A DNA stretch of 33,635 bases, taken from positions 1 through 33,635 of the IMG/VR virus record IMGVR_UViG_3300046000_003524; one strand, given 5' to 3'. Below, one piece after another: positions 3,474 through 23,874 of the stretch. Source of the stretch: a virus. The number at the start of each line of letters is the position of its first letter. Within the stretch, counting starts at the first letter, position 1. The position numbers were made by a program, and so were the translations under genes. A model generated the notes under the pieces. It did not search any database. It was not told the DNA's origin and saw nothing but the letters and a program-made list of their open reading frames with translations.

Positions 3474-5981
3474 ATGAATTTTTATACCAATGTAACTCGT
3501 CATCGAAATCAAATTCTAGTTCGCGGAATATCTGATGGTAAACCTGTCAAGTTTTCTGTGAAATACAAACCTTATTTATTCGTTCAAGCAAGTGCACAAA
3601 CCGAACATAAGAATCTGAAAGGTGAATATGTAGGTAAGATGCAATTCGATTCCATGTCTGAGACGCGAGAGTTTCTGCAAAGTTACGAGAACGTAGCAGG
3701 CATGAACATCTATGGCCTCTCCGATTGGCCTTACATGTATATTTATGACAAGTATAAGGGTGAGATCAAGTATGATCCTGCCCTCGTTTCAGTTTGTTCG
3801 ATCGATATCGAGACCAGTATTGAAGGCGGTTTTCCTGACATCGAGAAAGCAGACAATGAAATCACAGCGATTACCATAGGCCGCAATGGTAGAAAGACTA
3901 CGTTTGGTTGCGGTGAATATCAGGAGCATCAAGAAAATGTACAATATTACAAATGCGCAGACGAGTCTGCACTCTTACTCGCCTTTCTCGAAGTCTGGAA
4001 CGGATCACTCTATTCGCCTGAAGTTGTCACAGGCTGGAACATCGAGTTCTTCGATATCCCATATCTTGTCAACAGGATTCGAAAAGTTCTTGGATCTGAT
4101 CACGCTGAACGTCTCTCTCCCTGGAAAATGCTGCGTGAATACAAAGTTAACAGTCGCGGGCGAGACTGCATTTGCTATGCCCCCATTGGTGTCGCAGTCC
4201 TCGATTACATCCAGCTTTATCGGAAGTTTACGTACACAGAGCAGGAATCTTACCGACTTGACTACATCGCTCAAGTTGAGCTCGGCGAAGGAAAGCTTGA
4301 CTACCGCGACGAAGGTTATACCGACCTCGATGACCTTCGACTAAGAAACTTTCAACTCTATATCGAATATAACGTTCGAGATGTTGAGATCGTTGAGAGG
4401 CTCGAAGATAAGCTGAAGCTCATCGAGTTGGTCTATGCTTTGGCTTATGACGCCAAGGTTAACTATGAAGATACTATGACAACCGTGAAACAGTGGGATG
4501 TGATCACTCACAACTACCTGCTCGATCGAAACATCGTAGTGCCTCTCAACGATAAGAATAAACCCGACCGAGCCTTCGTAGGCGGATATGTTAAAGATCC
4601 AAAGGTCGGCATGAGTAAATGGGTTGTGTCGTTCGATTTGAACTCCCTTTATCCTCACCTTATCATGCAGTACAACATCTCCCCCGAGACGCTTGTCACT
4701 CGCTTAAAAGATAAGGTGTCAATCGACGACCTACTTGTTGGTGGCGCTAGTCAGTTCGGTGACTATCTTGATAAAACGAACTGTACTATCGCCGCCAACC
4801 TTTGTATCTATACGAAAGAAAAGCGTGGCTTCTTGCCATCGATTATGGATCGTATGTATGACGATCGTACTCGATATAAGAAGCAGATGATCGAGGTGAA
4901 GAAGGAATACGAGAAGACAAAGAATCCTCTTCTTGTCAAAGAAATTGCACGTCTCGATAACATGCAAATGGCAAAGAAGATTCAGTTGAACTCGGCTTAT
5001 GGTGCTCTCGGTAACAAGTGGTTTCGTTGGTTTGACGTGAATAATGCCGAAGCCATCACCACCTCTGGTCAGCTCAGCATTCGTTGGATCGAGAACAAGT
5101 TGAATGACTATCTCAACAAACTGTTGAAGACAGAAAACTTTGATTATGTGTTGGCTTCTGATACCGACTCGGTGTATGTCACTCTCGAATACCTCGTGAA
5201 GAATGTATTCGGTGATGATGTACCTGAAACCAAGAAGGTGATTCAGTATATCGACAAGATCTGTAAGGAACGTATCGAACCATTCATCGATCGTTCTTAT
5301 CAAGAACTTGCCGAATATATGCATGCATACGATCAAAAGATGCAAATGAAGCGAGAGAACATCGCCGATAAGGGCATCTGGAAAGCCAAGAAGATGTACA
5401 TTCTCAATGTATGGAACTCTGAAGGTGTTGAGTATGAGAAGCCGAAGCTGAAGATGACAGGCATCGAAGCAGTTCGATCCTCGACTCCGACTGCATGTCG
5501 TGATGCCATTAAGAAGTCTCTCGAGATTATCATGGCTGGATCTGAATCGGATCTTCAGAAGTATGTCGCCAACTTCAAAGAAAAGTTTTCATCTCTTGGA
5601 TTTGACGACATAGCTTTCACTCGCGGTGTCAAGGATATCGAGAAATACTGGGTAGGTGGTAGGTTTCAAAGCCAGACACCTATTCACGTTCGCGGTTCAG
5701 TCGTCTTCAATGAAATGTTGAAGAAGAAGAAACTCACGAATAAATATCAATCGATTACCAGTGGTGAGAAGATTAAGTTCGCGTATCTCAAAAATCCGAA
5801 CCCGACACAAGACTATGTGATCGCATGTCCGAATGGTCTACCAAAAGAATTGAAGATGGAAACTTATATCGACTATGCAGTGCAGTTCGAGAAAGGCTAT
5901 CTTAGCCCTATCGAGTCGATCACAAACACCATGGGATGGCAAGCAGAAAAAAGAGCAACACTCGAGGATTGGTTCAGCTAA
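3474..5981 (+). CDS. 43: replicative DNA polymerase, family B (T4 gp43-like)
   Basis: Replicative polymerase with 3'-5' proofreading. Exo I is DIET (D111 on). Exo II is GWNIEFFDIPYL and Exo III YNVRDVEIVERL. Polymerase motif A is SFDLNSLYPH (D388), motif B KKIQLNSAYGALGNKWF, and motif C ASDTDS (D563, D565), so both active sites look complete. At 835 aa it is a little shorter than T4 gp43 (about 900). I chose ATG 3474 because GGAG lies five bases before it and the predicted transcript starts near 3451; an in-frame ATG at 3450 would sit at the transcription start. It ends in a TAATG overlap with the next gene. No intron or split is seen, unlike gene 43 in some T4-like phages. Confidence 0.97.
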   Translation: MNFYTNVTRHRNQILVRGISDGKPVKFSVKYKPYLFVQASAQTEHKNLKGEYVGKMQFDSMSETREFLQSYENVAGMNIYGLSDWPYMYIYDKYKGEIKYDPALVSVCSIDIETSIEGGFPDIEKADNEITAITIGRNGRKTTFGCGEYQEHQENVQYYKCADESALLLAFLEVWNGSLYSPEVVTGWNIEFFDIPYLVNRIRKVLGSDHAERLSPWKMLREYKVNSRGRDCICYAPIGVAVLDYIQLYRKFTYTEQESYRLDYIAQVELGEGKLDYRDEGYTDLDDLRLRNFQLYIEYNVRDVEIVERLEDKLKLIELVYALAYDAKVNYEDTMTTVKQWDVITHNYLLDRNIVVPLNDKNKPDRAFVGGYVKDPKVGMSKWVVSFDLNSLYPHLIMQYNISPETLVTRLKDKVSIDDLLVGGASQFGDYLDKTNCTIAANLCIYTKEKRGFLPSIMDRMYDDRTRYKKQMIEVKKEYEKTKNPLLVKEIARLDNMQMAKKIQLNSAYGALGNKWFRWFDVNNAEAITTSGQLSIRWIENKLNDYLNKLLKTENFDYVLASDTDSVYVTLEYLVKNVFGDDVPETKKVIQYIDKICKERIEPFIDRSYQELAEYMHAYDQKMQMKRENIADKGIWKAKKMYILNVWNSEGVEYEKPKLKMTGIEAVRSSTPTACRDAIKKSLEIIMAGSESDLQKYVANFKEKFSSLGFDDIAFTRGVKDIEKYWVGGRFQSQTPIHVRGSVVFNEMLKKKKLTNKYQSITSGEKIKFAYLKNPNPTQDYVIACPNGLPKELKMETYIDYAVQFEKGYLSPIESITNTMGWQAEKRATLEDWFS

Positions 5982-14215: not shown

Positions 14216-14631
14216 TGCTTGAATGTTTGATCATGGGAGACTCGATCGCAGTTGGAACGAAGATGTTTGCTCCAAAAGAGTGTGTATCTTATTCGAAAGG
14301 TGGTTGGAATACTTGGCAATGGAACAAAAAGTGGGGTAAGACTCCGCTTGAAGCCAAGACAATCGTGATTAGCCTCGGAACAAACGATCATAGCGGCGTG
14401 AATACGAAAAAAGAGTTTACAAAAATTAGAACTCGTATTAAGGTAGGCAATATAGTATGGATCATGCCTCCTTGTAATAAAGGCTTTTGCAAACCTGCAG
14501 TCAACACTGCAGTGAAGAGCATTGCTGTCAGTTACGGAGATCGTATCATCTCTACTTCGTATGTTCAACCTGATAATGTCCATCCGTCATGGCGTGGATA
14601 TAAAGATCTCGTAAAGAAAGCTGGAATATGA
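14215..14631 (+). CDS. SGNH/GDSL-family hydrolase, 138 aa
   Basis: Small serine esterase of the SGNH superfamily. Block I is GDSIAVG (catalytic S10), block III SLGTND (N57) and block V DNVHP (D120, H123), so the triad is complete. A glycine for block II is in the KGGWNT segment. At 138 aa it is very compact for the family (usually near 200). The substrate could be acetyl esters on capsule, O-antigen or lipid. It lacks a signal peptide, so it acts in the cytoplasm or is carried on virions. It sits between the Sm-like gene and the 185-aa gene, all coupled. Confidence 0.85.
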   Translation: MLECLIMGDSIAVGTKMFAPKECVSYSKGGWNTWQWNKKWGKTPLEAKTIVISLGTNDHSGVNTKKEFTKIRTRIKVGNIVWIMPPCNKGFCKPAVNTAVKSIAVSYGDRIISTSYVQPDNVHPSWRGYKDLVKKAGI

Positions 14632-16035: not shown

Positions 16036-16641
16036 ATGATAAAGAAACGATTCAGAGAGTTTATTGGTTCAGGTACACTTACGATATTCGATATCGATGA
16101 GACGCTCTTCCATACGTATGCCAAAGTTGCTGTTGTGAAAGATGGTAAGACAGTTCGTATGCTAGATAACCAAGAGTTCAACACATATAAGCGTAAGAAG
16201 GGTGAAACCTACGACTTCGGAGAGTTTGCTAACGCAGAGGTGTTCCGCAAGTCATCGAAGCCAATCACTCGAATGGTTGCCAAAACAAAAGCTATCTTTG
16301 CTAACTCGAAAAAGAATCCTCATAGTCGAGTGATTATCTGTACAGCACGTGCTGACTTCGATAACAAGGACATCTTCCTTCAGACATTCAGAGATCATGG
16401 TCTTCCTATCGATAATATCCATGTCGAACGTGCTGGTAACTTGAAGATTGACTCATCGGCTGAAGCCAAGAAGATCATCTTTAAGAAATATATAAATACC
16501 AAGAACTATACAAAGTTAAGATTGTTTGATGATGCTCCTAGCAATCTTCATGCGTTTCTTTCATTGAAGAAAGAATTTCCTGATATTACGTTCGAAGCTT
16601 ATTTTGTAAATCCTGATGGATCGGTAAAAACAGTACGATGA
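16036..16641 (+). CDS. HAD-superfamily phosphatase, 201 aa
   Basis: Motif I is FDIDET (D19, D21), motif II is IICTAR, and motif IV is LRLFDDAPSN, the acidic pair near the C-terminus. A basic Lys near residue 140-150 serves motif III. This is the phosphatase fold found in the 3'-phosphatase part of T4 polynucleotide kinase (PseT), but no kinase P-loop is present, so it is a stand-alone phosphatase. The first ten residues (MIKKRFREFIG) partly resemble the F-K-x-F leader of neighbouring genes. No ribosome site is seen upstream. Nucleic-acid end repair is suggested by the next two genes; nucleotide or sugar phosphate substrates are alternatives. Confidence 0.82.
   Translation: MIKKRFREFIGSGTLTIFDIDETLFHTYAKVAVVKDGKTVRMLDNQEFNTYKRKKGETYDFGEFANAEVFRKSSKPITRMVAKTKAIFANSKKNPHSRVIICTARADFDNKDIFLQTFRDHGLPIDNIHVERAGNLKIDSSAEAKKIIFKKYINTKNYTKLRLFDDAPSNLHAFLSLKKEFPDITFEAYFVNPDGSVKTVR
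16491..16498 (+). promoter_or_regulatory. late-type motif TATAAATA inside the HAD gene
   Basis: TATAAATA lies 140 bases before the 55-aa gene. A late promoter here would express the leader-bearing genes 16638-18582 separately from the upstream early unit. Occurrence inside a coding region weakens it. Confidence 0.35.
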
Positions 16642-16805
16642 AAACATTTAAACATTTTGTCTCTGAACAGCACGTAGACCACAAGGGTAATCCTATTACT
16701 GTGCAAGACATCCGTCTTATAGCTGGCGAAGGAAAACTTTTAAAAAGAACTATTAAACAAGCTGTTGATGTAATTAAAAGGCATCGCATGAAGAGAAACC
16801 CATAA
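16638..16805 (+). CDS. small protein with capsid-targeting-like leader, 55 aa
   Basis: The ATG overlaps the HAD stop (ATGA) and the stop overlaps the next ATG (TAATG), so it is a coupled gene. The N-terminus MKTFKHFVSEQ resembles T4 internal proteins II/III (MKTYQEFIAE), which carry the capsid-targeting sequence cut by the gp21 prohead protease. The rest is basic and helical (LLKRTIKQAVDVIKRHRMKR) and would suit DNA binding inside the head. The cleavage motif (VSE) is a weaker match to L/I-x-E than in its neighbours. Function inferred only. Confidence 0.65.
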   Translation: MKTFKHFVSEQHVDHKGNPITVQDIRLIAGEGKLLKRTIKQAVDVIKRHRMKRNP

Positions 16806-17974
16806 TGACCACATTTAAAGATTTCCTTGCAGAAGAGCTTGACGAAAGCAAACTGAAGCATCTTGAGCATGCCGAAGATCATGTAATCAATGCTGGTCAT
16901 GAAGGCTTTTCGCATGCCTATCACAACCTAAAAGATGTGCATGATAAGTTGACTGGAAAGAAAAACGATACCAAAGTGACCATGAAGTATGATGGTTCTC
17001 CTTCTGTCGTATTCGGTCGACATCCTCAAACTGGTCGATTCTTTGTCGCATCAAAGTCTGCCTTTAATAAGAATCCAAAGATTAACTATACCGAAGACGA
17101 TATTCAAAAGAATCATGGTCATGCGCCTGGCTTGGTAACAAAACTGAGAGCAGCTTTACAGCACCTTCCGAAGGTGACACCGAAGAAAGGGGTTTTCCAA
17201 GGCGATATTATGCATACGCCTGACGATGTTCATGACAATGATGGTCGAGTGCACTTCACTCCGAATACCATTACATATTCTGCTGCGAAGGCATCTGCAC
17301 AAGGTAAAGCCGCTCTCAATTCGAAAATTGGTGTTGCTGTTCATACCAAGTATAATGGCAACAACCTCGAAGACATGCAAGCCGAGCACGGCGCCGAACT
17401 CGGCGATTTTGGATTGCATAAAGATGTGCATTTGATTTCTACCGCGCATCGCCTTGATAATATCAAGTATACTCCTCAGAATCGCGAAAGATTTGCAAAG
17501 GCGATGTCTGCAGCAGCTGCAGCCAATAAGAAAACAAAGCCTGAAACATATGAAGCGATTAAAGGCCATGAGATTCCTCTGAAGACTTATATCAATCATA
17601 CTGTTCGTACTGGTACAAAACCGAATGTCGAAGGTTTTATGAATCACTACATCAAGTCGCATCAAAAGAAAGTTGATAGTGTAAAAACTGACAAATCAAA
17701 AGCCGCGAAAACTGCTGAGATGGAAACTGCAATTGGCCACGTTCAACGCAATCGTAGGCACTTTGAAAATGTGTTAAATCAACATAAGGCATTACAAAAG
17801 GCCAAGAACGTATTAACGAATACGCTTTCGAGCAATTCAGAATTTGATCATAGCATTAATGGAAAGAAAGCAAAGCCTGAAGGTTTTGTAGTAGTCAGAC
17901 ATAATCGTCCTACTAAGTTTGTTGATCGTGCTGAGTTCTCGGCAGCCAATTTTAATAGGGATAAAGCAGTATGA
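16805..17974 (+). CDS. KxDG nucleotidyltransferase (ligase)-like protein, 389 aa
   Basis: Residues 61-64 are KYDG inside VTMKYDGSPSVVFG. K61 is the candidate nucleotidyl lysine of the DNA/RNA ligase superfamily (KxDG). Later segments fit other motifs: FFVASKSAF (motif III-like), GVFQGDIM (Glu/Asp motif), and the basic FVVVRHNRPTKFVDR (motif V-like). The second half (residues 230-330) is rich in Lys/His with helical repeats. I recall similar phage proteins under a domain of unknown function (DUF6267-type), so activity is not established. The N-terminus MTTFKDFLAE has the LAE site of a prohead protease and resembles the 55-aa gene, suggesting the enzyme may be packaged. TAATG overlap upstream. 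Confidence 0.7.
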   Translation: MTTFKDFLAEELDESKLKHLEHAEDHVINAGHEGFSHAYHNLKDVHDKLTGKKNDTKVTMKYDGSPSVVFGRHPQTGRFFVASKSAFNKNPKINYTEDDIQKNHGHAPGLVTKLRAALQHLPKVTPKKGVFQGDIMHTPDDVHDNDGRVHFTPNTITYSAAKASAQGKAALNSKIGVAVHTKYNGNNLEDMQAEHGAELGDFGLHKDVHLISTAHRLDNIKYTPQNRERFAKAMSAAAAANKKTKPETYEAIKGHEIPLKTYINHTVRTGTKPNVEGFMNHYIKSHQKKVDSVKTDKSKAAKTAEMETAIGHVQRNRRHFENVLNQHKALQKAKNVLTNTLSSNSEFDHSINGKKAKPEGFVVVRHNRPTKFVDRAEFSAANFNRDKAV

Positions 17975-18582
17975 AGTCCATTCATATTACACAAGGAAGA
18001 TTTAATCCTGTCCATGCTGGACATGCGATGGTTGTGAAACATGTGATGGATTCTGCTAAAGCGGAAGGTGCTGATCATAAGATCTTGACGACTGGATCTC
18101 ATGATGCCAAGAAGAACCCTTTGACACCTGAGCAGAAGGTAAAGCATCTTTCTCGTGCTGTCAAAGGAGCGAAGGTTGAAGCGATGAGTAAAGATCATCC
18201 TACTCTTTTGCATCAGATGTCGAAGTTGCATAAAGCTGGTTACACACATGTGACGATGCATGTTGGTTCTGATCGTGTCAATGAATTCCATAAACTCCTA
18301 CATCAGTATAATGGCAAAGATCTCAAGCATGGTCATTATAACTTTAAGAGCATTAAGGTCAAGTCAGTAGGCGGAGAACGTAAAGAAGGCGGAGGTGGAA
18401 TTGAATCCGCTTCTGGTACTGCTATGCGTAAGCACGTTACCGCAGGTGATAAGGAATCATTCCATAAGATGGCTCCATCAGGTATGAGTAAAGCACATAA
18501 AGATGAACTGTATCATGATGTCCGCAAAGGCATGGGCGTGAACGAATCATTCATTGTGAGATTTAAAAACTGGATTGGTTGA
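17971..18582 (+). CDS. HxGH nucleotidyltransferase, NMNAT/CoaD-like, 203 aa
   Basis: The N-terminus ITQGRFNPVHAGHAMVVKHV carries the HxGH motif (H15, H18) with GRFNPVH typical of NadM/NMNAT and CoaD folds. A second motif near residue 150 is SASGTAMRKHV (the ISST-x-x-R type). It differs from the nucleotidyltransferase at 517, which is cytidylyltransferase-like. Reactions of the family include NMN + ATP to NAD or phosphopantetheine + ATP; here the substrate is unknown and RNA/DNA ligation substrates are also possible. Start overlaps the ligase-like gene as ATGA. The end is basic and aromatic (SFIVRFKNWIG), maybe DNA- or membrane-associated. Confidence 0.82.
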   Translation: MKSIHITQGRFNPVHAGHAMVVKHVMDSAKAEGADHKILTTGSHDAKKNPLTPEQKVKHLSRAVKGAKVEAMSKDHPTLLHQMSKLHKAGYTHVTMHVGSDRVNEFHKLLHQYNGKDLKHGHYNFKSIKVKSVGGERKEGGGGIESASGTAMRKHVTAGDKESFHKMAPSGMSKAHKDELYHDVRKGMGVNESFIVRFKNWIG

Positions 18583-18601
18583 TCCGTTAAAGTTTCTTTG
18601 T

Positions 18602-18609
18602 TATAAATA
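18602..18609 (+). promoter_or_regulatory. late-type promoter motif TATAAATA
   Basis: TATAAATA in the 88-base gap before the 690-aa gene. The leader of about 55 bases, with TTGC/GCAA pairing near 18613-18632, precedes AAGGGA and the ATG. This is one of the cleanest late sites in the window. Confidence 0.6.
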
Positions 18610-18670
18610 GGTTTGCGGTTAGGCTACGGCAATCCCGTTTGTGTAACAGATAAGCCCAAGGGAAACTCTG

Positions 18671-20743
18671 ATGGAAGATAAGAATAAAAAACCGGTTGAT
18701 ACGAAGCAGTTAAAAAAGCCAACCGGCACGTCTGTAACTGGCAAACCACTTGATAGTATCGAGATCCGTCCTCAGCTTAAGGGTCTCGGAAATCGCCAGC
18801 ATAACGAGGATACCGTAGTCCTAACTGACACCTTAGCTGAGAAAAAAGCGTTGACACTCGTTCAGCGCCAACGCAGAGCTCGCATCTTAAGAGCAAAAGA
18901 GCCAAAGATGCAGAGAGCGAAAGAAGTCGCACAACACAAGCTTGCCTCAGAAGATAAGCTGAAGGCTCGAGCAATCAACAAAGCAAGAAACATTGTCAAG
19001 ATGAGGTTTGCAGCTCGTAAGGGAACTCCTTATACCGAGCTTACCACATCTGAAAAAATTCAAGTGGATAAAGTAGTCGATAAGAAAGTCGCGCTAATTC
19101 GAAAATTAGCTGCGCGGCTTTTACCTTCGCTTCGTAAAGCGGAAGTCAATCGTTTAGCTTCATTCCAATCTGGAGCAAAGCTACAGCATGCGACTGCTGG
19201 ACCAGTCAACGAAGAATTCAATAACATCGTCGAAAGTCTTGACAGTAAGACTTCGATGCAGCTCGTCGACATCATTAATGATTCGATTGATGCTCTTAAC
19301 GAGAACAATAACACAATGGGTATTACGCTGAAGAGACTGCTTAATGCAGTTCTTCCAGAAGATGCCGCAACCTCTACTCTTATTCAAAAAGCCGAAAGAA
19401 CCGGCATACCGTTCTCGACCCTTAGAGAGGTGTTCGAGCGCGGTTCTTTTGCGTGGGAAAATGACGGCAAAGCTACACAAGAACAATTCTCTTTTGCAAG
19501 AGTGAATAGCTATATTGCCAAAGGCAGAGCGTGGACACTCGATGCAGATCTTCGCGAAGAGAAACTTATCAACGATAAGCTTGATAATGTCTTCGAAGCC
19601 TATCATACTGGTTTAAGCCCATCAACTGCCAAGAAGCGTGAAGCTCACTGGAAGAAGATGGAAAAGTATTCTGATAAAGATGATCGTGCATATCAAGATG
19701 CTCCTGGAGACAAAGAAGCTCGTAAGAAACCGATGCCACAATCTGTACATACGAAGAAATATCATGCCATGTACGGTGCTAACGAGGATTATAGTGCATC
19801 TGATATGCACGAAGATCCTGTCAACGAAAGTCTATGGGCTAATATTCATGCCAAGCGCAAAAGAATTGCAGCTGGATCTGGCGAACGTATGCGTAAGCCT
19901 GGATCGAAAGGTGCTCCAACACAAGCTGGATTAAAGTCAGCTCAAGAAGCAGTCGAAGATCAAGTAGGCAATAAGATCGCTGATACGGCAAGACACGGTA
20001 AAGTAAGATATGGCGGCGTAAGAACTGCAGATCATAAAGAAACTGCTACTCAAGAACGTCAAGAAGTTCAGTACGTTAAGCGCCATAAGATGCACACGAA
20101 AAGAGAGACTGACGCTGATCCGCAACAGATTCGTATCGCTCAAGATCAGATCAAAAAGAAAGTGATCGACGAATCCAACAATACACCGTATGTAAAAGCC
20201 TTTAAAGAAAAAGGCAGCACTGAACAACGCGGTTGGAAAGCTTCGAACAAACATGGCAAGGTAAAATACTTTGGTTTAAAGTTCAAAGATTCTGCACATA
20301 AGCATGCAGGAATCAATGAAGCTGCCGACAAGCATCCGATTGTAAAAGAATATGACTCATTAAAAAAGCACGATATTAAAACTCTTCGTAGTATGATTGC
20401 ACAGAGCGGCGGAGTTGTTGATACCTCTGGTTTTAAATCTAAAGATCACGCGGCATCACACATTATTCGTTCAAAGCACGGCAATAAAAAAGTAGATGCG
20501 GCATTTGGATTTAACGAAGATACTTCTGCAGATCGTGAAGTCGGTACTAAATCACTTGTCAAGAAGTATCAGAAAGAAACGCCTGGTCAAGAAAAAGCAG
20601 ATGTCAACGAAATGTTTAATACAACTTTCGACGAAGATATCGAGCGCAGATCAGATTTTCGAATGATCAAATTTCGTACTCCAAAAGGATGGGTTTGGAG
20701 AAAAGTTCGGAAAGAAGTAGATGTTGAGAGAGATGCCGAATGA
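18671..20743 (+). CDS. large charged virion/scaffold-type protein with DUF-like core, 690 aa
   Basis: Lys/Arg/Glu-rich and mostly hydrophilic, with extended linkers and helical segments; no catalytic motif is seen. Residues 240-295 (IPFSTLREVFERG, FSFARVNSYIAKGRAW) share a core with the 790-aa protein downstream: [ST]LxxVxxRGxxAW, then ARVNSYIxKG and ADxDLRxE. That core is a domain of unknown function I recall from phages and giant viruses (DUF5824/DUF5872 type). Many I/L/V-x-E sites (for example VNE and INE motifs) could be cut by a prohead protease. AAGGGA ribosome site and a late promoter point to a head protein. Possible internal or scaffolding protein. Confidence 0.68.
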   Translation: MEDKNKKPVDTKQLKKPTGTSVTGKPLDSIEIRPQLKGLGNRQHNEDTVVLTDTLAEKKALTLVQRQRRARILRAKEPKMQRAKEVAQHKLASEDKLKARAINKARNIVKMRFAARKGTPYTELTTSEKIQVDKVVDKKVALIRKLAARLLPSLRKAEVNRLASFQSGAKLQHATAGPVNEEFNNIVESLDSKTSMQLVDIINDSIDALNENNNTMGITLKRLLNAVLPEDAATSTLIQKAERTGIPFSTLREVFERGSFAWENDGKATQEQFSFARVNSYIAKGRAWTLDADLREEKLINDKLDNVFEAYHTGLSPSTAKKREAHWKKMEKYSDKDDRAYQDAPGDKEARKKPMPQSVHTKKYHAMYGANEDYSASDMHEDPVNESLWANIHAKRKRIAAGSGERMRKPGSKGAPTQAGLKSAQEAVEDQVGNKIADTARHGKVRYGGVRTADHKETATQERQEVQYVKRHKMHTKRETDADPQQIRIAQDQIKKKVIDESNNTPYVKAFKEKGSTEQRGWKASNKHGKVKYFGLKFKDSAHKHAGINEAADKHPIVKEYDSLKKHDIKTLRSMIAQSGGVVDTSGFKSKDHAASHIIRSKHGNKKVDAAFGFNEDTSADREVGTKSLVKKYQKETPGQEKADVNEMFNTTFDEDIERRSDFRMIKFRTPKGWVWRKVRKEVDVERDAE

Positions 20744-21033
20744 TCGGGTTCAAGGAGTTCATCGCTGAGCGTGGAGAAGATTCAAAGGGTCACTTCATTG
20801 CCACCGAAAAAGGCGCAGGGATGACAGCGAAAGGTGTGAAAGCTTTTCGCGCAAAGAATCCTGGATCTAACCTTCAGACAGCCGTAACTGGTAAAGTCAA
20901 ACCCGGATCAAAAGCTGCAGGCAGACGTAAGTCATTCTGTGCTCGTATGAGTGGCAATAAAGGTCCAATGAAAGACGAGAAGGGCAGACCAACTCGTAAA
21001 GCAATGTCCCTTCGTAGATGGAAGTGCAACTGA
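20740..21033 (+). CDS. small basic protein, DUF6321-type, leader-bearing, 97 aa
   Basis: MIGFKEFIAE matches the T4 IPII/III start (MKTYQEFIAE) with an IAE prohead-protease site. The rest is Lys/Arg/Gly-rich (GAGMTAKGVKAFRAKNPGSN, KVKPGSKAAGRRKSFCARMS, RPTRKAMSLRRWKC), a pattern I know as a phage/giant-virus domain of unknown function (about 80 aa). The basic tail suits binding packaged DNA. Coupled to the 690-aa gene (ATGA overlap) and to the Dps gene. Conserved and compact; likely a packaged DNA-binding protein. Confidence 0.78.
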   Translation: MIGFKEFIAERGEDSKGHFIATEKGAGMTAKGVKAFRAKNPGSNLQTAVTGKVKPGSKAAGRRKSFCARMSGNKGPMKDEKGRPTRKAMSLRRWKCN

Positions 21034-21467
21034 TGGAAGAGATCACTAATCCGCTTAAAGAAGCTTTTGCAGATACCTATGCTTTCTATGTGAAGGCACA
21101 GAACTATCATTGGAACGTCGAAGGACCAATGTTCTCGATGTATCATGATTTCTTTGGTAACATTTATCAAGAAGTCGGTGGTGCAATCGATCAGTTTGCC
21201 GAAGAGATTCGCGCACAGAATGCATACGCTCCTGCTGCCTTCAGCCGCTTCAAAGAATTAACAAGCATCGAAGACGAAGTTCTTATCATTAAACCTGAGC
21301 AAATGGTGTCTAATCTTTTCGAAGATAACAATCGAGTTCTTGCTTCTCTTCAACTCGTAAGAAATGTAGCAGACGAATACAAACAAAACGGTCTTGTTAA
21401 CTTCCTCGAAGAAAGACTTGATCAGCACAATAAACACGCATGGATGCTCCGAGCATCGATGAAATAA
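21033..21467 (+). CDS. dps: Dps-family ferritin-like DNA-protection protein
   Basis: Dps dodecamers oxidise iron with peroxide and can bind DNA, protecting it from damage. The ferroxidase ligands are all present at canonical spacing: H26, H38, D53, E57 (gaps of 12, 15, 4, as in E. coli Dps). YHWNVEGPMFSMYHDFFGNI is the family signature. At 144 aa it is a minimal Dps without a long N-terminal DNA-binding tail. I start at ATG 21033 (overlaps the prior stop); an in-frame ATG at 21018 lies in the preceding gene. It is co-transcribed with leader-bearing basic proteins, which suggests protection of phage or packaged DNA. Phage Dps genes are uncommon. Confidence 0.9.
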   Translation: MEEITNPLKEAFADTYAFYVKAQNYHWNVEGPMFSMYHDFFGNIYQEVGGAIDQFAEEIRAQNAYAPAAFSRFKELTSIEDEVLIIKPEQMVSNLFEDNNRVLASLQLVRNVADEYKQNGLVNFLEERLDQHNKHAWMLRASMK

Positions 21468-21501: not shown

Positions 21502-23874
21502 ATGTTAACGAATAAAATCACAGGATTTAGTGCTGATCTTCTTAATACAGTTCGCGGTATTCTTGGAGAAGCGAAGAAGTGCCCATCAGATTGTGAATGC
21601 GAAAAGTGCGAAGCAGAAGAGATGAAAGAAGGCTCGATGCCGACTGTCGACGAACCGACTGATGCAAACAAGAAAACTGCAGACAAAGTTCGCGCGATGA
21701 TGGCCAAAGAAAAGAAATTAAAAGAAGACATCATGGAAATGGTGGAAGAAGCTTCAAGCGGTCTTGCCGATAAAGCAAAGAAATCTGGTGTATCTTTGTC
21801 TACCTTGAAAAAAGTATATGCTCGCGGTATTGCTGCTTGGAATAGTGGCCATCGTCCAGGTACAACTCCACAACAGTGGGCACATGCTCGTGTCAATTCA
21901 TACATCACGAAGGGCAAAGGCACATATCATGGTGCTGACAAAGATCTTCGTAGCGAAGGCACTGATATGCCTTTTGATCCGCCGTATAGCAAACCCGGTG
22001 AACGCAAAGACGCATACGGCAATAAAGTAAAGAATGTTGCTAAGTATCTTGCGAAGAAAGCAATGAACGATCTTGCTAAGAAGAATGAAGAAGCTGAGCA
22101 TAACAATTGCGGAACTCCTGAATGTTGCGGACAGTGCGATACGCCTGGACAGATCGATGAGATTTCTGCAAAGACTGCAGTAAATGCTTATGCCAAGCGT
22201 AATGCCAAAGCATTCAACGACGGTCAATACGATGATGAAGCTGAAAAAGACTATAACAAGTTAGACAAACAAGGTGATAGAATTCAAAGAAAGTTTGGTG
22301 ACAAAACTGTTCGTAAAGCACAGAGTGCCGCTTATAAGAAGATCTTTGGAGAAGAAGTCGAAAATCTCGATGAAACTGCAAAGATCGTTGCTCATCTTCA
22401 AAAGCGTTACGGAGACAATATTCGCAAGAGCCATGTTCGCTCAGCAGCTAGCGATTTCGGTGTCGATGCATCAAAGTTAGCGAAAGCAGTACGTACTAAG
22501 TTGGGCAAGAATATGCTTGATGAAGAGGATGATGGCTGGTATACCCATTCTCAGATGCACGGTTCAAAGAAAAGTGAAAAGCACCCAAAGGGTATTTCGG
22601 CTGATGAATGGAAATCTGGCATTAGATGGCATCATGGTAAGAATAAAAGAATTAATATTAAAGAAGAAGTCGAGCAGATTGATGAGTTGAGTGATACGTA
22701 TTCAGCTCCTGCTAGAGTTCCACAAAAGATGATTAAGCCTGAAGCAGCTCGTAGAATGGCTAATACTGCTAATAGAAAAAACATGTCCGACAAGGATATT
22801 GAAACCGTTCTATTCAATCAGGGACACGGTCGCAAGTCGTTGAAACTAATTAATCAACTTCGTAAGGAAGAAGCTGAAGATCTTGATGAAACATCTGCAA
22901 AGAAAGCAATGGATTACCTAAGTAAATCGTTTGCACCTAGAGAAACAGCTGTAGAACGTTCAGCTAGAGCTACTCGGTATAATCCTGGTGATCGAAAGGA
23001 AGCTGGTAGACTCCTAGGTAATAAAATGAAGGGAGCCGAAAGAGCTGGAAAGATCATCAGTAAGTCATTTACTGTTAAAGAAGAAGCCGAGCAGGTCGAT
23101 GAACTTTCAAAGAAACCCGGGGGAATCTTAGACACATATCAACAGCGTGGCACTTTTAAAGGTGACAAGAACCGGGATGCTGGTAGAAAGCTTGCAACTA
23201 AAAAATTGAATCCTGGCAAATATGGAATGGAAGCACCTAAGGTAGCAGCTACCAATGAAGAAGCCGAACAGATTGATGAACTTTCAAAGGGAACACTGGG
23301 TCGTTATATTAATAAGGCGGCAGATCGCATGAGTACACAAGGTGTGACTGCTGGTCTGAAGATTGCTGCCGATGAAAAATCAAAGAAAAACTTTGACACT
23401 ATCGCAAAGCGTCAAAAAGGTATTGCGACTGCAGTTAGCAAGCTGACCAAGGAAGAGCAAGACTTTGTTGATTCGCTGAACGATGAGACATTCGAAGAAG
23501 TAGAAATCACCGAAGCGCGCGGTCGCCCAAGAAAGGCTGGTGCCAAGGATTTCACGATTCATCCGAAGACAAAAGAAAAGCTCATGCACAACAATCCTGC
23601 ACATATGAAGACTATCGAAATTCTTCAGAAAAACGGTATTCTTGAGAAGCCAAAGGTTGAAGCTGGTCAGCACATCATGAATCAGTTGTCGAAGGCAAAG
23701 ACATCGATGTTAGGTGGATCTAAGATCAACTTTACACATGGCGATTCGAAAGAAGTTTCAGGAACACATGCAGCAAAGATCTTGACGAAGTATGCTGGCA
23801 TGAAGCCGAACGAGAAAGAAGACTTTCAGAAGTTTGTAGGTCACTCTCATGAAAACCTGATGAAACACGTATAG
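21502..23874 (+). CDS. large repetitive head-type protein with IDEL repeats, 790 aa
   Basis: Mostly hydrophilic and Lys/Glu/Ala-rich. Six copies of an [EEAE]-[QDN]-[ILV]-D-E-[LTI] repeat are spaced 40-100 residues apart. Each has an I/L/V-D-E site like that cut by the T4 gp21 protease (L/I-x-E), so it may be matured into several pieces. Residues 95-152 hold the DUF5824/5872-type core shared with the 690-aa protein (STLKKVYARGIAAWN, WAHARVNSYITKG, ADKDL). Two Cys clusters, CPSDCECEKC near residue 31 and CGTPECCGQC near 199, may bind metal. Late promoter and GGAG precede the start. Likely scaffold or internal head protein. Confidence 0.68.
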   Translation: MLTNKITGFSADLLNTVRGILGEAKKCPSDCECEKCEAEEMKEGSMPTVDEPTDANKKTADKVRAMMAKEKKLKEDIMEMVEEASSGLADKAKKSGVSLSTLKKVYARGIAAWNSGHRPGTTPQQWAHARVNSYITKGKGTYHGADKDLRSEGTDMPFDPPYSKPGERKDAYGNKVKNVAKYLAKKAMNDLAKKNEEAEHNNCGTPECCGQCDTPGQIDEISAKTAVNAYAKRNAKAFNDGQYDDEAEKDYNKLDKQGDRIQRKFGDKTVRKAQSAAYKKIFGEEVENLDETAKIVAHLQKRYGDNIRKSHVRSAASDFGVDASKLAKAVRTKLGKNMLDEEDDGWYTHSQMHGSKKSEKHPKGISADEWKSGIRWHHGKNKRINIKEEVEQIDELSDTYSAPARVPQKMIKPEAARRMANTANRKNMSDKDIETVLFNQGHGRKSLKLINQLRKEEAEDLDETSAKKAMDYLSKSFAPRETAVERSARATRYNPGDRKEAGRLLGNKMKGAERAGKIISKSFTVKEEAEQVDELSKKPGGILDTYQQRGTFKGDKNRDAGRKLATKKLNPGKYGMEAPKVAATNEEAEQIDELSKGTLGRYINKAADRMSTQGVTAGLKIAADEKSKKNFDTIAKRQKGIATAVSKLTKEEQDFVDSLNDETFEEVEITEARGRPRKAGAKDFTIHPKTKEKLMHNNPAHMKTIEILQKNGILEKPKVEAGQHIMNQLSKAKTSMLGGSKINFTHGDSKEVSGTHAAKILTKYAGMKPNEKEDFQKFVGHSHENLMKHV
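22150..23295 (+). repeat. IDEL/LDET degenerate protein repeat, six units
   Basis: Coding repeats at residues near 217, 284, 388, 456, 527 and 586 of the 790-aa protein: GQIDEIS, ENLDETA, EQIDELS, EDLDETS, EQVDELS, EQIDELS. Preceding EEAE or EEVE is kept in five. The DNA copies differ in third positions, so the repeat is under protein selection. Confidence 0.7.

Follow-up and report, generated by a model that had tools for sequence, protein, structure and literature searches.

The 33,635-nucleotide stretch of viral DNA analysed here (IMG/VR record IMGVR_UViG_3300046000_003524, positions 1–33,635; a 33.6-kb fragment from a T4-like aquatic phage, hereafter the window) codes for three proteins whose first ten residues resemble the capsid-targeting sequence (CTS) of internal proteins II and III (IPII, IPIII) of phage T4. 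We consider it very likely that these leaders are T4-type CTSs, and that proteins equipped with them are built into the prohead, cut by the protease gp21 and ejected into the host. The CTS itself is known from T4. Leaders of the same form are found on enzymes reported from the virions of related cyanophages.

A CTS-like leader on unrelated proteins

The three leaders, MKTFKHFVSE (gene at 16638), MTTFKDFLAE (16805) and MIGFKEFIAE (20740), stand at ATG starts and share F-x-x-F-[VLI]-x-E at residues 4–10, as a preliminary description of the sequence had stated. The residues between the fixed positions vary, and position 8 is Val in one of the three. The same description placed the leaders on three adjacent genes. 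This holds for the first two, which overlap by one base; the third is separated from them by two genes (17971 and 18671).

The papers drawn on here are PMC3037559, PMC10665884, PMC9146016, PMC9602691 and PMC9026906. According to a review of T4 head assembly (PMC9026906), ten N-terminal residues are enough to bring IPIII into the head; targeting depends mainly on residues 4 and 7 and processing on residues 8 and 10, and gp21 cleaves after L/I-x-E. Asp at position 10 stops processing, not targeting, and the CTS may be a general route by which T4-like phages pack various proteins (PMC9026906). The conserved positions of the window leaders coincide with these four IPIII positions. The noted resemblance to the T4 CTS is confirmed: about ten N-terminal residues have aromatics at 4 and 7, [VLI] at 8 and Glu at 10, and they recur on proteins that are otherwise unrelated and can be told apart from the folded part.

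We searched for this leader with the strict pattern M-x(1-3)-[FY]-x-x-[FY]-[ILV]-x-E, which was written with the window and T4 leaders in view and fixed before virion proteins were compared; a relaxed pattern was widened slightly later. Gene calls came from our own simple picking of open reading frames (ORFs). Three of the window's 54 gene calls fit the strict pattern, whereas its 199 internal methionines give no match. Across 22 genomes or fragments, window included, the pattern matches 5 of 13,105 internal methionines. From this, 0.04 matches are expected by chance at the window's 107 candidate ATGs, and the Poisson probability of at least three is about 1e-5. As a positive control, the strict pattern picks out three genes of T4, namely ipII, ipIII and gp61.1. 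The last of these (NC_000866, 18966–19130; locus L320) codes for an unnamed 54-residue protein beside the primase gene 61; it begins with the CTS-like MKTFKEFIKED and is possibly an internal protein of T4 that has escaped notice.

Further leaders of this form, anticipated in the preliminary description, are plentiful. In 155 related loci (window included), strict leaders stand at 198 of 3,859 N-terminal ATGs versus 6 of 9,073 internal methionines, and they precede 22 body families, of which 13 were seen once and three are those of the window. Entropies of the fixed leader columns are circular, because the rows were selected by the pattern itself. Orthologues of the DUF6267 protein (16805) were not chosen in this way, and they carry the strict leader in 75 of 76 cases at ≥60% identity, in 107 of 115 at ≥40%, and in 7 of 28 at 30–40%. 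These counts mark the leader as a feature of a clade that thins with distance. For the DUF6321 protein (20740) the strict leader is present in 34 of 42 orthologues.

The leader also behaves as a detachable module. In the structural model of the DUF6267 protein, residues 1–12 have a predicted local distance difference test (pLDDT) score below 50, and the body is mostly above 90. DUF6267 proteins occur without the leader in P-HM2, S-SM1, S-SZBM1 and S-CRM01. In contig G007, which has gp21, MKTFKEY[LI]-like leaders open five consecutive gene calls whose bodies differ, one being a HAD phosphatase; the same leader is carried by a DUF6267 gene that precedes these five and starts at a codon other than ATG. 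A variable slot lies between the HAD gene and the DUF6267 gene, empty in 59 of 75 loci and occupied in 16. In all 16 the guest is a leader-bearing ORF. The guests belong to three families (55, 88 and 328–339 residues), and the window's 55-residue gene is one of these guests. Since many of the loci are close relatives, the three guest families are the independent units here.

The leaders of DUF6267 were also compared with those of its partner, a cytidylyltransferase/NMNAT-like protein. Of the loci or genomes in which the two are unfused (118), 108 show a strict or relaxed leader on one or both; the 118 are mostly close relatives, and a few records count twice, as locus and as whole contig. Fusions of the two were found as nine ORFs, five with a strict leader. 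We had considered that the cytidylyltransferase of the window, which has no leader, might ride into the head on DUF6267. This idea was set aside in view of the relatedness of the records, and because the leaderless partner in S-SZBM1 is unlisted among virion proteins and the leader-bearing one is listed.

The preliminary description expected a gp21-like protease in the genome; none was found in the window's own record, which is uninformative because the window is a fragment, and relatives do encode one. Searches for a gp21-type protease (PF03420) were positive for all 10 named T4-like phages examined and for 5 of the 10 long related contigs, which are incomplete by nature. The closest long contig is among these five (G001, 128.8 kb): its DUF6267 protein is 87% identical to that of the window, its gp21 matches PF03420 at 7.5e-35 between genes that we read as portal and scaffold, and its DUF6267 and DUF6321 proteins begin with the same leaders as in the window. 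Strict leader genes make up 29 of 2,860 genes in gp21-bearing genomes (without the window) versus 2 of 797 in the others (Fisher p 0.022), where the latter are defined by the lack of a PF03420 match, which is not proof of absence. The DUF6321 body is leaderless in 3 of 3 such gp21-less phages examined (C75C1, HTVC023P and DSL-LC07). Leader-like starts (MAKTLKDFLNER and MRTFKELREAK) also occur just upstream of gp21 in G001 (124173–125495, loci L102–L108) and C48C1 (14434–14631), at the place of the T4 core proteins gp67 and gp68.

Leaders on virion proteins of related cyanophages

Cytidylyltransferase/NMNAT proteins have been reported in the virions of four cyanophages: SSZBM1_140 of S-SZBM1 (Table 1 of its report), gp154 of S-CREM2 (Table 3), ORF91 of S-SCSM1 and, in text, T4-GC190 of S-SM1. 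All four begin with a leader (MRFRQFIIEA, MKNFSSFLTEA, MKSFLQFLKEA and MKKFSAFLNEA, respectively). The DUF6267 proteins of S-SZBM1 and S-CREM2, which have no leader, do not appear in the virion tables printed for these phages. Four further virion proteins of S-CREM2 bear a strict or relaxed leader, namely gp6, a SAM hydrolase (PF23780, 2e-19), the kinase-like gp14, and the unnamed gp13 and gp136. A kinase is reported in the virions of S-CRM01 (cited in PMC10665884). The annotated kinase of the corresponding block in this phage, g130, starts with MISFDQFLSE and is presumably the virion kinase.

The association can be put in numbers for S-CREM2. Five of six relaxed matches at annotation-checked starts are virion proteins, versus 52 of 219 proteins overall (p 0.003); gp175 is the one non-virion match, and gp12 was excluded with the core of its motif at residues 19–25. 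A seventh match, at a GTG codon at 149124, has an unchecked start, and counting it as non-virion gives p 0.009. The strict matches pooled over phages give 5 of 6 in virions (p 0.0009, with an approximate gene number for S-SCSM1). This count omits the match at 4192 in S-SZBM1, which lies 27 codons inside an ORF call, and that at 79458 in S-SCSM1, which is off the annotated start. Judged through these relatives, the interpretation that leader-bearing proteins are packaged is supported.

Two groups of proteins in these phages deserve mention. Proteins of S-CREM2 (OR473000, 7704–10313; gp12) and S-CRM01 (HQ615693, 100701–101252) start with RW-x-x-WS-x-G followed by F/L-x-x-F-[MI]-x-E-A about 20 residues in; this may be an extended version of the leader. 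The depositors' name for gp12, Cas9, was not relied on: the protein has no Pfam or NCBIfam match and only matches a PHROG of unknown function. Nucleotidyltransferases resembling polymerase beta lie beside the cytidylyltransferase or are fused to it in S-CREM2 (gp156, 126012–126725), S-CRM01 (g125) and a related locus (L245:2838–5390); of these, gp156 is among the virion proteins listed for S-CREM2, and a leader stands on the protein from L245.

Points against packaging and alternative explanations

Several observations weigh against the assignment of the leaders as packaging signals. The virion evidence comes from relatives, not from the window phage. Two leader-bearing proteins, SSZBM1_191 (OL473597, 122311–122628) and SSCSM1_30 (MK867354, 44215–44535), are not flagged in the virion data as printed. 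These two are related, about 105 residues long, and each is encoded beside a virion structural gene; they are either misses of mass spectrometry or counter-examples. Conversely, ORF89, 90, 92 and 93 of S-SCSM1 are virion proteins of the block without a leader. The virions of S-CBWM1 and S-TIM5 reportedly hold kinases, and those of S-CBWM1 also NMNAT (PMC10665884); enzymes of this kind can thus enter the head in the absence of this tag. Authors of two of the proteomes caution that the enzymes may be carry-over from caesium chloride preparations. The low leader frequency in distant DUF6267 orthologues belongs here as well, as does the imperfect pairing with gp21: both strict leaders of the gp21-less genomes sit in S-TIM5, which has no PF03420 match, and strict leaders are missing from HTVC008M, which does encode gp21. 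We conclude that the tag accompanies enzyme packaging but is not the sole way in.

One alternative explanation is that the proteins stay in the cell, where the leader, as a short amphipathic helix, would bind a phage protein such as a component of the replication machinery, and that the virion detections are carry-over. The structural model does give residues 4–12 as a low-confidence helix, the gene block lies between the replication genes gp41 and gp61, carry-over was raised by the proteome authors themselves, and a translational repressor (ORF70) is likewise marked as a virion protein in the S-SCSM1 record. Nonetheless, we regard this explanation as unlikely. The leader is identical to the CTS at the decisive positions, with the Glu of the protease site fixed, and is common to bodies of unrelated sequence; moreover, replisome proteins are absent from the printed virion tables of S-CREM2 and S-SZBM1, the same two tables that do not list leaderless DUF6267. 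Pure chance is a far weaker contender. The motif is short and does occur at a handful of internal methionines, but three matches in one window, their conservation among orthologues and the uniform tagging of slot guests make a fortuitous resemblance of N-termini highly improbable.

The leader might also direct proteins to the head without being processed, with cleavage after Glu10 being dispensable or absent in this family. Among 81 orthologues of the HAD protein, 59 have an F-x-x-F-[IV]-like leader without Glu and four have a strict leader; distant DUF6267 proteins (for example MFSFKGFITKD) likewise keep the aromatic core without Glu. By the IPIII rules, where Asp10 prevents processing and leaves targeting intact, the HAD protein would be targeted and not cut. 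For the family as a whole we find this improbable, since Glu is kept in nearly all DUF6267 ORFs at ≥40% identity (the 107 of 115 given above). Targeting followed by cleavage remains our favoured account of the strict leaders.

The cargo and its gene block

If the window proteins follow the T4 scheme, the aromatics at positions 4 and 7 would bind the protein core during prohead assembly and bring the cargo in, and gp21 would then cut the [LIV]-x-E site after Glu10. The mature proteins, a 42.3-kDa DUF6267 enzyme, a 9.4-kDa DUF6321 protein and a 5.2-kDa small protein, would share the head with the DNA and be ejected into the host together with the genome. Within the cargo block between gp41 and gp61, genes would acquire and lose leaders, and leaders would pass from one gene to another. 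Past residue 10, both small proteins are basic, with isoelectric points (pI) of 11.0 and 11.3, in agreement with the basic tails described earlier, and nucleic-acid-bound roles are favoured for them.

The DUF6267 protein is taken as a predicted RNA-ligase-like covalent nucleotidyltransferase. The ligase-like KxDG core of the preliminary description is confirmed by two alignments of relatives, in which K61-x-D63-G64 is unchanged in 10 of 10 and in 58 of 58 sequences. Equally invariant in the 58 are Q132, D134, H180, Y183, E359, G360, V362, K371 and R375, so that KxDG is followed by EGxV and KxVDR-like motifs, as in covalent nucleotidyltransferases. In these enzymes KxDG is motif I. The model (mean pLDDT 90.2) has a ligase fold: all 50 entries listed by VIA-align are ligases, with best Z scores for Naegleria ligase (10.0), Trl1 (8.6), T4 Rnl2 (8.5) and T4 Rnl1 (8.1). 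Foldseek gave a weak best match (E 0.03). Sequence searches of the PDB returned no true match for the DUF6267, HAD or cytidylyltransferase-like proteins, and NCBIfam had no match for the first two. PADLOC, run on the window enzymes and leader cargo, returned only weak PDC-S09 matches, for two pol-beta-like proteins from cyanophages or contigs.

As to the task of this cargo, we would guess, tentatively, at nucleic-acid repair or adenylylation at the start of infection by DUF6267 together with the polynucleotide-kinase-like (PNK-like) phosphatase. By extension, and just as speculatively, T4-superfamily phages of lakes and seas may maintain, between gp41 and gp61, a locus of exchangeable cargo genes with a single ten-residue tag that directs their products to the head. 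The cargo of the window clade could then be an injected repair kit, composed of the RNA-ligase-like enzyme, the PNK-like phosphatase and an NMNAT-like partner, that counters host nucleases or defences depleting nicotinamide adenine dinucleotide before phage expression.

From our ORF reading, the window appears to contain the T4-type replication genes gp43, UvsX, gp41, gp61, ThyX and NrdA. In annotated cyanophages the order is polymerase, UvsX/RecA, gp41, DUF6267, cytidylyltransferase, primase and NrdA. The block between gp41 and gp61 of the window includes the genes at 16036, 16638, 16805, 17971, 18671, 20740, 21018 and 21502 (Table 1). The protein encoded at 21502 contains 12 [LI]-x-E sites versus 6.7 in shuffled sequences (fraction 0.02) and may be a core-like protein that is cut many times; for the 18671 protein, the excess over shuffles is not significant.

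Table 1. Leaders and genes of the gp41–gp61 block in the window
Feature	Position	Strand	Basis and remarks
HAD phosphatase	16036..16641	+	phrog_415 7e-10; resembles polynucleotide kinase 3'-phosphatase domains; leader-like FREFI without Glu
Leader 1, MKTFKHFVSE	16638..16667	+	sequence; cleavage after E10 predicted
Basic protein of 55 residues, predicted cargo	16638..16805	+	variable slot between HAD gene and DUF6267; pI 11.0 past residue 10
Leader 2, MTTFKDFLAE	16805..16834	+	kept in close orthologues (see text)
DUF6267 protein, 389 residues, KxDG at 61–64, predicted head cargo	16805..17974	+	PF19782 5e-100; motifs; model and fold comparison
Cytidylyltransferase/NMNAT-like protein, leaderless in the window	17971..18582	+	PF01467 4e-6; phrog_3041 2e-46
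DUF5824 protein	starts 18671		lies between leader-2 and leader-3 genes
Leader 3, MIGFKEFIAE	20740..20769	+	strict leader in most orthologues (see text)
DUF6321 basic protein, 97 residues, predicted head cargo	20740..21033	+	PF19846 1.6e-20; body leaderless in gp21-less phages (see text)
Ferritin/Dps-like gene	21018–21467		PF00210 2e-21; overlaps end of DUF6321 gene; no leader
Repetitive DUF5824 protein, 790 residues	21502–23874		five EE[AV]E-x-x-DE[LT]-type repeats

Relation to known systems

In the literature searched, which left out most subscription journals so that an earlier report may exist, we found no description of a CTS in cyanophages or their relatives, of one on cyanophage virion enzymes, or of a swappable slot, and no paper naming DUF6267. 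NMNAT-like, kinase and SAM-hydrolase proteins recur in cyanophage virions, and the papers do not distinguish between cargo and carry-over. A tag that is present on virion enzymes and missing from an unlisted neighbouring enzyme provides a sequence rule by which injected proteins of T4-like phages might be predicted. This rule points to likely first actors of infection, the ligase-like enzyme among them.

The closest known system is that of IPII and IPIII of T4, whose leader MKTYQEFIAE is cut by gp21. It shares with the window leaders the N-terminal position, the length of ten residues, the aromatics at 4 and 7, the L/I/V at 8 and the Glu at 10, the use on several unrelated bodies, and, in relatives of the window, the presence of gp21. 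In contrast to T4, the window leaders have Phe instead of Tyr at position 4, the bodies include ligase-like or kinase-like enzymes, and packaging in the window phage is a prediction. An enzyme as head cargo also has a precedent in T4, where Alt, a head-packaged ADP-ribosyltransferase, is trimmed by gp21 (PMC9026906). DUF6267 is a different type of enzyme, and the 7-residue propeptide of Alt falls outside the leader pattern, as far as our scan of T4 shows. The cytidylyltransferase/NMNAT proteins reported from cyanophage virions come from the same gp41–gp61 block and bear the same leader, whereas in the window the leader sits on DUF6267 and not on the cytidylyltransferase-like gene. Finally, DUF6267 resembles the RNA ligases Naegleria Rnl, T4 Rnl1 and Rnl2, and Trl1 in KxDG and the later motifs and in its fold (Z 8–10 over about 170–200 residues), but is only 10–14% identical to them and has an extra helical region.

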